A DNA stretch of 64,000 nucleotides, from assembly GCF_007997135.1 (NCBI RefSeq), contig NZ_VORU01000005.1:62001-126000 (forward strand). Reading direction: 5' to 3'. The translations under genes and the position numbers were made by a program. This DNA comes from Aequorivita lipolytica. GTDB lineage: Bacteria > Bacteroidota > Bacteroidia > Flavobacteriales > Flavobacteriaceae. The notes beneath the pieces are model-generated. The model was not told where the DNA came from. It was given only the letters and a program-made list of their open reading frames with translations, and ran no database searches. This document shows positions 2 through 64,000 of this stretch, piece by piece (within the stretch, counting starts at the first letter, position 1; the number at the start of each line of letters is the position of its first letter).

Positions 2-847
2 TACAAATACGGAAACGAAGAACAACGCAAAAAATACCTACCAAAACTCGCTTCTGGCGAATGGATGGGCTGTTTCGGTTTGACCGAGCCAGACCACGGC
101 AGTAATCCCGCCGGAATGACCACCAGCTTTAAAGACAAGGGCGACCACTATCTTTTAAATGGTGCTAAAATGTGGATCAGCAACGCTCCTTTCGCACAAG
201 TTGCCGTAGTTTGGGCGAAAAACGAAGAAGGTAGAATTCACGGTTTAATTGTAGAGCGTGGCATGGAAGGCTTCTCAACTCCTGAAACTCACAATAAATG
301 GTCGCTTCGTGCTTCGGCAACTGGCGAACTTATTTTTGACAACGTGAAAGTTCCGAAGGAAAACTTACTTCCGAATAAATCAGGCTTGGGCGCGCCACTT
401 GGCTGCCTTGATTCTGCACGTTACGGAATTGCTTGGGGCGCAATTGGCGCTGCGATGGATTGTTATGATACAGCGCTTCGTTATTCAAAAGAAAGAATGC
501 AGTTTGGAAAGCCTATTGGTCAATTCCAACTTCAGCAGAAAAAACTTGCCGAAATGATTACCGAAATCACCAAAGCACAATTACTAGCTTGGCGCGTGGG
601 TGTAATGCGAAATGCAGGAACCGCAACAAGCGCACAAATCTCTATGGCGAAACGAAATAATGTAGATATGGCGATAAATATTGCCCGAGAAGCAAGACAA
701 ATACTCGGCGGAATGGGCATCACTGGTGAATACAGCATTATGCGCCACAGTATGAACCTTGAAAGCGTAATCACGTATGAAGGCACTCACGATATCCATT
801 TGTTAATTACCGGATTAGATATTACTGGGCTGAACGCGTTTCAATAA
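2..847 (+). CDS. gcdH: Glutaryl-CoA dehydrogenase, 5'-truncated by window edge
   Basis: An acyl-CoA dehydrogenase-family flavoenzyme that would oxidise and decarboxylate glutaryl-CoA to crotonyl-CoA in lysine/tryptophan breakdown. The frame is open from base 2, so the N-terminal part (roughly a quarter to a third of a protein of about 390 residues) is outside the window; 281 codons remain. Seen here: the FAD/substrate motif CFGLTEPDHGSNP near the start, the flavin-binding segment RMQFGKPIGQFQ, and the C-terminal YEGTHDIH, whose Glu is the catalytic base position of glutaryl-CoA dehydrogenases. TEPDHGSN and YEGTHDIH favour this subfamily over short-chain acyl-CoA dehydrogenases. It is followed by a strong hairpin, so it probably ends its transcription unit. 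Confidence 0.88.
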   Translation, partial: YKYGNEEQRKKYLPKLASGEWMGCFGLTEPDHGSNPAGMTTSFKDKGDHYLLNGAKMWISNAPFAQVAVVWAKNEEGRIHGLIVERGMEGFSTPETHNKWSLRASATGELIFDNVKVPKENLLPNKSGLGAPLGCLDSARYGIAWGAIGAAMDCYDTALRYSKERMQFGKPIGQFQLQQKKLAEMITEITKAQLLAWRVGVMRNAGTATSAQISMAKRNNVDMAINIAREARQILGGMGITGEYSIMRHSMNLESVITYEGTHDIHLLITGLDITGLNAFQ

Positions 848-47129: not shown

Positions 47130-47221
47130 CGATTATAAAAGTATTCAGTTAACAGTAGCATTTGGCAGTTTTTGGAATTTGGATTTTTGAGATTTGGAAT
47201 TTATTTGGAGTTTGTTTTTTG

Positions 47222-47929
47222 TTATTTGGTGCTTTCGATTTCGAAGGCCGTTCCCATAACTATCATATCGGCACCCGATCTGTAAGCTGTTTCTTTTTGT
47301 ACTTCTGTTTTTATTCCCCCACCAACAATTAAAGGAATATTGATAGCTTTTTTTACTTCAGAAATAATTTCAGGTTTTACAGGAATTTTTGCGCCGCTTC
47401 CTGCTTCCAAATAAATAAGTTTTGCTCCCATAAATTGTCCGGCCAAAGCTGTATTCACAATCAACTCAATATTTTCCTGCGGCAGTGGTTCCGTTTTTGT
47501 CACTTTTGAAACCGATGAATTATTTCCACCATCAATCAAAATATAGCCAGTGGAAATAATTTCCAAAGCCAAATTTTTCAATTTCGAAATGGATTTTATT
47601 TGTTGGCCAACTAAGTATTCCGCATTTCTTCCCGAAAGCAACGTCAAAAATAAAAGAGCATCTGCAAGCGGTGTAATGTGCGAATGATCGCCCGGAAAAA
47701 GAAAAATGGGAAGTTTCGATTCAGCTTTCAAAGCTTTTACCGTTTCTTCGGTTTCTCCATTTGCCACTGTACTTCCGCCCACAAAAAGATGTGTTGTTTC
47801 CTTTGGAATTTTATTTAGAAATGATTTCGTTGCAGAAATATCAAATTTATCTGGGTCGATCAAAATAGCGAGTTGCTTTTCTTTTCCGGCAACCAACTTT
47901 AGAAAAGATTTATAAAAAATTCCTTCCAT
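47222..47929 (-). CDS. Geranylgeranylglyceryl/heptaprenylglyceryl phosphate synthase
   Basis: A 235-residue TIM-barrel prenyltransferase of the GGGPS/PcrB family, joining a long polyprenyl chain to glycerol-1-phosphate. Diagnostic stretches are LAILIDPDKFD, LFVGGSTVANG, FPGDHSHITP, YLEAGSGAKIPV and LIVGGGIKT (phosphate-binding). Archaeal-type ether lipid chemistry occurs in several bacterial lineages through this family; the bacterial product in flavobacteria is not settled. It begins directly at the end of the PPTase gene, so they are cotranscribed. Confidence 0.9.
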   Translation of the reverse strand: MEGIFYKSFLKLVAGKEKQLAILIDPDKFDISATKSFLNKIPKETTHLFVGGSTVANGETEETVKALKAESKLPIFLFPGDHSHITPLADALLFLTLLSGRNAEYLVGQQIKSISKLKNLALEIISTGYILIDGGNNSSVSKVTKTEPLPQENIELIVNTALAGQFMGAKLIYLEAGSGAKIPVKPEIISEVKKAINIPLIVGGGIKTEVQKETAYRSGADMIVMGTAFEIESTK

Positions 47930-63110: not shown

Positions 63111-63190
63111 ATGTCGAAATTATAAGCATATTTCGACATATATTTGCAACGTGTCGATTTTGTCGACATATTACAAATATATGTCGATAT
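63111..63190. promoter_or_regulatory. Array of TGTCGA motifs (operators) ahead of fic
   Basis: Five related sites: ATGTCGAAAT (63111-63120), its inverse ATTTCGACAT (63130-63139), GTGTCGATTT (63151-63160), TTGTCGACAT (63160-63169, inverse) and ATGTCGATAT (63181-63190) just before the ATG. They flank a -7 box TATATTTG at 63139-63146. The arrangement of two inverted pairs plus a single site suggests cooperative repressor binding. Confidence 0.6.
63139..63146 (+). promoter_or_regulatory. Promoter -7 box TATATTTG for fic
   Basis: Exact TAnnTTTG embedded between TGTCGA motifs, 45 bases upstream of the fic ATG. Confidence 0.45.
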
Positions 63191-63191
63191 T

Positions 63192-64000
63192 ATGTACAAT
63201 CCTGAAAAACCATACAACGAACTCCCGTTGCTTCCACTTCATAAAGAGTTAGAAACGAAAGCGATACTTAAACAAGCCATTTCATCCAATAAAATACTGG
63301 CAGAATTGAAGGGACGAGCAGATGAAATCCCTAACCAATCGATGCTTGTTAATGCCATAACGCTACAAGAAGCAAAAGATAGTTCCGAAATTGAAAATAT
63401 TGTAACTACTCAAGATACCCTATACAAAGCTTTTTCGTCTAATATATCAGAAACGGATGCCCAAACAAAGGAAGTTTTAAGATATCGGCAAGCACTTTGG
63501 GAGGGCTTTAATGAATTGAAAAATAGGCCACTCGCAACCAATTCATTCATAAAAATTGTGCAGACCATTAAAGAAAATAGCTCGGGAATTAGAAATGCAC
63601 CGGGAACAGTTATAACCAGTAATAACAAGACAATATATACCCCACCCGAAGGGGAAAACACAATTCGAAACCTTCTTAAAAATCTAGAAGATTTTATGCA
63701 CGCCGATGATGACTTGGACTACCTTGTAAAATTGGCAATTATTCACTATCAGTTTGAAGCCATACATCCCTTTTTTGACGGAAACGGCAGAACGGGAAGG
63801 GTGCTAAACATTCTTTATATTGTTGAGAAAGGTTTATTGGAGAGTCCTATTTTATATTTAAGTAAATATATTATTGAAAATAAAAATGACTATTATAAAA
63901 ACCTCAGAAATGTAACTGAAAATGCTGCGTGGGAAGCTTGGATCCTATTTATGCTAAAAGGTGTTGAAGAAACTGCCAGATACACTTTGAATAAAATAAA
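63192..64000 (+). CDS. Fic family protein (AMPylator/de-AMPylator), 3' end outside window
   Basis: The first 269 codons of a Fic protein, cut by the window end. An N-terminal alpha domain begins YNELPLLPLHKELETK; the inhibitory-helix motif SSEIEN (residues 64-69) fits (S/T)xxxE(G/N) of class II Fic proteins. The active site HPFFDGNGRTGR (192-203) has the catalytic His and the metal/phosphate loop, so AMP transfer activity is expected. The order matches Shewanella SoFic-type proteins, which carry a C-terminal winged helix; that part is not visible. The TGTCGA array upstream suggests autoregulation. The surrounding gene-poor AT-rich stretch is typical of accessory genes. Confidence 0.88.
   Translation, partial: MYNPEKPYNELPLLPLHKELETKAILKQAISSNKILAELKGRADEIPNQSMLVNAITLQEAKDSSEIENIVTTQDTLYKAFSSNISETDAQTKEVLRYRQALWEGFNELKNRPLATNSFIKIVQTIKENSSGIRNAPGTVITSNNKTIYTPPEGENTIRNLLKNLEDFMHADDDLDYLVKLAIIHYQFEAIHPFFDGNGRTGRVLNILYIVEKGLLESPILYLSKYIIENKNDYYKNLRNVTENAAWEAWILFMLKGVEETARYTLNKI

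Follow-up and report, generated by a model that had tools for sequence, protein, structure and literature searches.

A lattice of TGTCGA words as the probable self-operator of a SoFic-type fic gene in Aequorivita lipolytica, with counterparts in viral DNA

At the right-hand end of a 64,000-nucleotide stretch of the flavobacterium Aequorivita lipolytica (contig NZ_VORU01000005.1, positions 62,001 to 126,000; here called the window) lies a SoFic-type fic gene that is headed by a dense array of the word TGTCGA in both orientations. The gene continues past the end of the window, and its remaining part was taken from the organism's own genome. The features of the locus, in coordinates of the window, are as follows.

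63112 to 63117, plus strand: candidate operator word 1 (TGTCGA), an exact word whose place is conserved in relatives
63133 to 63138, minus strand: candidate operator word 2, convergent with word 1 at a gap of 15 and abutting the -7 box
63139 to 63146, plus strand: probable promoter -7 box TATATTTG, of the TAnnTTTG type
63152 to 63157, plus strand: candidate operator word 3, divergent from word 2 at a gap of 13
63161 to 63166, plus strand: sixth exact TGTCGA, overlapping word 4
63163 to 63168, minus strand: candidate operator word 4, convergent with word 3 at a gap of 5
63182 to 63187, plus strand: candidate operator word 5, divergent from word 4 at a gap of 13
63192 to 64265 (window part 63192 to 64000), plus strand: SoFic-type fic gene, 357 amino acids (aa), with its winged-helix domain past the window end
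63381 to 63398, plus strand: class II inhibitory motif SSEIEN (its codons), read from the translation, with the motif defined as in PMC9755527
63765 to 63800, plus strand: codons of the catalytic Fic motif HPFFDGNGRTGR, intact, read from the translation and from alignment to solved SoFic
about 63019 to 64256, no strand assigned: accessory block holding array and gene, missing as one piece from the same-genus genome G027 by alignment of both places

The inverted repeats sit over fic's own promoter, with the -7 box inside the array and word 3 at about the expected transcription start. The box TATATTTG fits the Bacteroidetes-type consensus, TAnnTTTG. The conserved words alternate in orientation in the order C15-D13-C5-D13, where C stands for a convergent pair, D for a divergent pair and the number for the gap, and their centre-to-centre distances across the array are 21, 19, 11 and 19 bp. 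A first-pass annotation, made by a model from the letters of the window alone, had counted five copies in both orientations, which is right for the conserved sites; the exact total is six within the 76 bp spanned before fic, the sixth (63161) being shared with one other locus of the same layout (L017) and probably incidental. The words were also said to surround the -7 box, with the last directly before the ATG, and word 2 does abut the box while word 5 ends 4 nt before the start codon at 63192. The claim that their density is far above chance is likewise borne out. TGTCGA occurs 11 times on the two strands of the window against 19 expected, six of the 11 falling within 63112 to 63187, and it is the sole 6-mer with at least three different letters that reaches six copies per 80 bp in the window; with the rate taken from outside the array, the Poisson probability of at least six copies in 80 bp is about 8e-17. 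Chance clustering of the words was rejected on this value, on the 6-mer comparison and on the control segments given below. Only one other 6-mer cluster of that density was seen in the window, at 47160 to 47229, where 70 bp hold five copies of ATTTGG counted on either strand. Over 16 flavobacterial loci, that of A. lipolytica included, the words are conserved at 99.6%, the -7 box at a mean of 97.7% and the spacers at 73.5%, and the last gap, between words 4 and 5, is 13 here and 14 in most of the flavobacterial relatives.

The product of the gene exceeds the Pfam cut-offs for all three of its domains, namely Fic_N (86 bits against 26.7), Fic (58.4 against 24) and SoFic-like_C (104.6 against 27), and it matches the PADLOC SoFic defence model over residues 12-356 (E 6.4e-116), its best solved relatives being 9vjc and SoFic. 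It scores 492.2 bits with the NCBIfam equivalog NF046030, below the cut-off of 550, and is therefore named SoFic-type here and not a SoFic equivalog. A C-terminal winged helix had been anticipated past position 64000, and one is predicted there: the SoFic-like C-terminal domain PF21248 covers residues 275-351, and a model of this domain from the orthologue L008 (predicted local distance difference test, pLDDT, 94.6) finds SoFic first by fold (Z 15.9), followed by other winged-helix proteins, TFE and PerR among them (Z 9 to 10). In this model a helix starts at the equivalents of R319 and Q320.

The same motifs also stand upstream of homologous fic genes, as an array conserved in relatives. Adjacent exact words in 104 dereplicated upstream regions are spaced as D13 (46), C15 (31), C5 (23) and D14 (16), and rarer gaps of 24, 34 and 45 are what skipped lattice words would leave. 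The gap run 15, 13, 5, read in either direction, recurs in Bacteroidota, Balneolaceae, a melioribacterium, Proteobacteria and a planctomycete. In Prosthecomicrobium (L059) the lattice runs to six words, C5-D13-C15-D13-C5, and the lattice is carried by the three E. coli SoFic genes that were fetched (L252, L253, L254). The distance from the last word to the ATG varies among loci from 4 to 57 nt. A lattice score blind to the word itself was computed for 230 regions (231 dereplicated regions minus one that was short or held an N; L094, whose match begins at residue 127, was dropped), and it exceeded that of all 200 shuffles in 107 of them. Regions with at least two TGTCGA passed in 72 of 75 cases and the others in 35 of 155 against 0.8 expected, while control segments elsewhere in the same loci rose above 100 shuffles in 2 of 452 cases, where 4.5 were expected. 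The words found in other SoFic lineages include AGGGTA, TGTAAA, TGATAA and TGTTCG, among others, and because the gaps recur without TGTCGA, these lineages have retained the spacing with a different word. When 6859 gap triples were scanned openly in 35 representatives without TGTCGA, the search, confined to lattices that start with a forward word, returned frame-shifted forms of the lattice as its two best triples by high-score count and as most of the next ones, with 9-7-21 and 13-16-13 as near misses; 15-13-5 itself stood at the score limit in none of the 35 representatives, and 5-13-15 in four.

The identity of the protein that reads the words was approached by covariation and by a tree. For covariation, 76 of the 107 loci were kept after rows above 85% identity had been dropped, overall identity was regressed out, and every column and every six-residue window was ranked by its association with word similarity; words of the 13-15-13 lattice were oriented by preferring a TG start, which could bias the test. 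Residues 317-322 (AKRQTA), at the start of the recognition helix, came first of 352 windows, with R319 the top column and Q320 the fourth. The lead passes to window 315-320 when the GGTAA clade is removed or TG-words alone are used, 317-322 then ranking 4 and 8, and with all TGTCGA loci left out 317-322 is again the first window. Among 227 loci, 70 combine RQ at 319-320 with at least two TGTCGA words and 128 have neither. In a tree of the Fic part alone the TGTCGA label needs at least six changes. L102 (AKRQTA, TGTCGA) groups with L142 (support 99/88) and, at the lower support of 84/77, stands next to the GGTAA clade, and the actinobacterial L084 and L244 (VSRPTA or VSRQTA; words TGCAAA or TGTTAA) fall inside a group that is nearly all TGTCGA, where they echo a separate clade in which VSR-type helices go with TGTAAA-like words. 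That word and recognition helix covary favours binding by the SoFic-type protein itself over binding by another regulator.

The convergent TGTCGA pair occurs at two places only in the A. lipolytica genome, both in the fic array, and a wider SoFic regulon in this genome was rejected because no site pair lies outside the array. The pattern TGTCGA-N4..25-TCGACA was found 2 to 56 times in each of 16 other genomes (that of L056 was left out), often near the count of a reversed-pattern control. In two of them, G594 (the genome of L059; 56 against 3) and G595 (the genome of L084; 14 against 2), the pairs exceed this control, which is unexplained. The same-genus genome G027 gave no match to the fic gene, and array and gene were acquired together, in a single block of some 1.2 kb in which no other regulator lies.

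Lattices of the same kind are present in viral DNA. A collection of viral contigs was scanned in which phage-borne SoFic genes were expected, gene calls being mechanical longest open reading frames (ORFs). D13-C15 and D13-C5 occur in at least 120 stretches each and together in at least 218 stretches (L256-L473) in 113 flank clusters, examples being L258:10672-10728, L271:10671-10727 and L328:4298-4354, and the four-word lattice C15-D13-C5 in 28 viral stretches. Control patterns in the same collection gave two stretches (D12-C14), one (D14-C6) and none, both for the anagram TCGTGA at the true gaps and for flipped orientation. A SoFic ORF adjoins the lattice in only two of 218 among the matches listed (L293 and L305), and in 30 of the 216 listed cases without one the stretch ends no more than 400 bp from the lattice. 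The extended form R-TGTCGA-W is seen at 88% of 324 bacterial sites, at 69% of 353 listed viral lattice sites and at only 30% of 613 other TGTCGA in the same listed viral stretches; among the matches listed, 46 of 112 viral clusters fit it at every site against 2.6 expected, in a flank test that covered 112 of the 113 clusters and left out those represented by L305 and L293. Some of the listed D13-C5 matches are probably incidental. Of the 218 listed lattices, 129 are enclosed by an ORF, a further 29 overlap one and the other 60 fall between ORFs, many of these ORFs being possibly spurious. Lattices were seen within the genes of, among others, an SbcC-like endonuclease, a major head protein, a peptide deformylase and a DNA endonuclease V family match. 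A search of 50 whole viral records gave no match to the SoFic C-terminal domain in 47, a full one in two (those of L293 and L305) and a weak one in one, although such records may be fragments. The word AGGGTA stands at D13-C15 in four viral stretches of one local sequence (L479:2138-2183, L480, L481, L482), within which no SoFic gene was found. Named phages with the lattice were not found with L281, which had no match, or L258, which had one 81-base match; the gene of L377 matched 352 records. Phages seem to have functional copies of the SoFic operator in their genomes. One viral contig with its own SoFic gene, L305, has a symmetric six-word lattice, C15-D13-C5-D13-C15, at 1617-1713.

We consider it highly probable (roughly 0.87) that the array is a self-operator, through which the SoFic-type toxin would bind and repress its own promoter; DNA binding, repression and the occupancy of each pair by one dimer are what we infer from comparison of sequences. 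SoFic dimers would bind pairs of TGTCGA words by way of their C-terminal winged helices, and the divergent pair D13, TCGACA-N13-TGTCGA, is probably the basic dimer site; no other pair is as frequent, and from one D13 pair to the next the distance is 30 or 40 bp, which places them on almost the same face of the DNA. Bound dimers would cover the -7 box, the transcription start and the leader and so shut fic off, and the amount of toxin would be held near what the operator can bind. The proposal of the first-pass annotation that Fic is an autorepressor by self-binding gains support from the predicted winged helix, the conserved array and the covariation of word and helix, and neither of the two outcomes that the annotation had named as refuting it was seen. 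A proven precedent is CccR of Yersinia pseudotuberculosis, a distantly related Fic toxin that represses its own promoter (PMC9755527). Like the system described here, CccR combines a Fic toxin, a C-terminal helix-turn-helix domain and an own promoter with inverted repeats, and the recognition helices of its dimer are about 70 Å apart, near 21 bp (PMC9755527). It differs in being a type VI secretion system effector of low identity to SO_4266 (29% over 45%) and in its operator of two 10-bp repeats 26 bp apart, whereas the TGTCGA gaps here are 15, 13, 5 and 13, and phage copies of its operator are not described in the available part of PMC9755527. The fic product may work like CccR without being a CccR. 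CbFic2 of Coxiella burnetii is likewise a class II Fic protein with a winged helix-turn-helix, and its dimerisation is induced by roughly 20 bp of DNA, a length near the 19 and 21 bp between words here; it differs in that random DNA was used, no operator is known and histone H3 is acted upon (PMC10628234). D13 (19 bp) and C15 (21 bp) would fit a dimer like that of CccR or CbFic2. The SoFic proteins of E. coli and Shewanella (PMC12249575) have the same three Pfam domains and the same catalytic and inhibitory motifs as the protein here, and in E. coli an antitoxin, AS1, is encoded downstream. A term search of that paper found no mention of an operator or of DNA binding. Wild-type SoFic is toxic when expressed leakily and needs a tight restraint for which auto-inhibition is insufficient; its control in uninfected cells is called open, and activation during infection is unexplained (PMC12249575). 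SoFic is regarded as a single-gene abortive-infection system, and a conserved self-operator would explain how fic is kept quiet and open the trigger to experiment. Words and their matching recognition helices would amount to a natural code for winged-helix specificity.

Several observations weigh against a self-operator. A significant lattice is lacking in 123 of the 230 upstream regions, and L141 has an AKRQTA helix with neither an array nor an explanatory upstream gene. RQ at 319-320 is not sufficient, as 25 of 95 RQ loci lack two TGTCGA words and 4 of 132 non-RQ loci have them, and the single columns L52 and N206 (in a subset I269 and T139) also covary strongly, though these are taken for clade markers. 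DNA binding by SoFic has not been demonstrated so far (PMC10628234), and its C-terminal domain has a role in enzyme activity and is not only a DNA-binding part (PMC12249575). One alternative is that fic is controlled from the array by some other protein of the host, in which case the winged helix of SoFic would serve only for enzyme control or protein contacts. The C-terminal domain is required for toxicity and touches the AMPylase domain (PMC12249575), and a Cro/CI-type regulator gene adjoins some array-less fic genes (L073, L109). This explanation is nevertheless improbable in light of word changes that follow the recognition helix of the same gene's product, the joint gain of array and gene in some 1.2 kb that contain no further regulator, and the lack of any further site pair in the A. 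lipolytica genome. The inverted repeats might also act as RNA hairpins in the leader and not as DNA operators, given that words 3 to 5 should be transcribed and UGUCGA-N5-UCGACA could fold. This is very unlikely, because the -7 box is preceded or touched by words 1 and 2, lattices of this form are found with 4 to 57 nt between its last word and the ATG, and the word changes along with the DNA-recognition helix. That arrays and viral copies alike have no function and reflect only chance or common descent is hardly credible: although many loci are related and some viral D13-C5 matches look incidental or repeat-derived (e.g. the L386 and L380 clusters), spacers have diverged where words have not, the viral controls give 2, 1, 0 and 0 stretches against at least 120 for each true pattern, and pattern-free flanks match bacterial SoFic sites.

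Some of the loci without an array have genes close upstream of fic. L028, L137 and L139 have the right helix and no array, and their fic is overlapped by 11 bp by an ORF with an N6-methylase or HsdM domain, as would be expected if another promoter drives the gene. Same-strand ORFs close upstream, many of them spurious, occur at 34 of 103 loci without a lattice and 23 of 106 with one; upstream genes as an explanation of missing arrays fit these three loci, but overall are only somewhat commoner where the lattice is lacking. In the same three loci and in L222 and L134, the array-less fic immediately follows ORFs of type I restriction-modification systems (with HsdM, N6-methylase or specificity-subunit domains), and in L073 and L109 Cro/CI-type regulator genes lie directly upstream of it, with L072 similar by eye.

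For the viral lattices, one tentative suggestion, which may well be wrong, is that operator DNA serves as the antitoxin of SoFic and that phages carry operator decoys that recapture the toxin. Autorepression would match the number of toxin molecules to the operator sites, DNA-bound dimers would not AMPylate, loss of host DNA or transcription in infection would free SoFic and kill the cell, and the TGTCGA lattices within and between genes of many unrelated viral genomes would take the toxin up again. CbFic2 is proposed to switch on DNA from AMPylation as a monomer to deAMPylation as a dimer (PMC10628234), which points toward such decoys. Against them it counts that DNA is also reported to stimulate CbFic2 activity (PMC10628234), that EcSofic toxicity needs dimers (PMC12249575), and that simple titration of SoFic would lift the repression of fic as well, to the detriment of the phage unless transcription in the host had already stopped. 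The viral copies could instead be operators by which phage genes are controlled, either by host SoFic or by a phage protein of the same specificity. The 60 of 218 listed lattices that the mechanical calls place between ORFs, some just before a gene (L281), speak for control of this kind; the 129 inside an ORF and the 29 that overlap one (many ORFs may be spurious), and the 47 of 50 records, possibly fragments, without a SoFic C-terminal match, speak against it, and we regard it as a real possibility that falls short of even odds. Should the viral lattices be decoys, they would constitute an anti-defence made of DNA alone, and phages with this counter-defence would be recognisable from sequence. 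No published report of SoFic operators or phage operator decoys was found in a search outside which preprints and most subscription journals lay.

Three further observations concern the surroundings of fic genes. A convergent ORF of 1156 aa ends at the fic stop in A. lipolytica (among ORFs of at least 80 aa), and contig C27 of the same genome holds a second Fic-domain gene (L007) with no convergent TGTCGA pair nearby. On two alphaproteobacterial plasmids (L246:2601-3536 and L249:2583-3482), a recombinase family gene overlaps the end of fic, next to repC.
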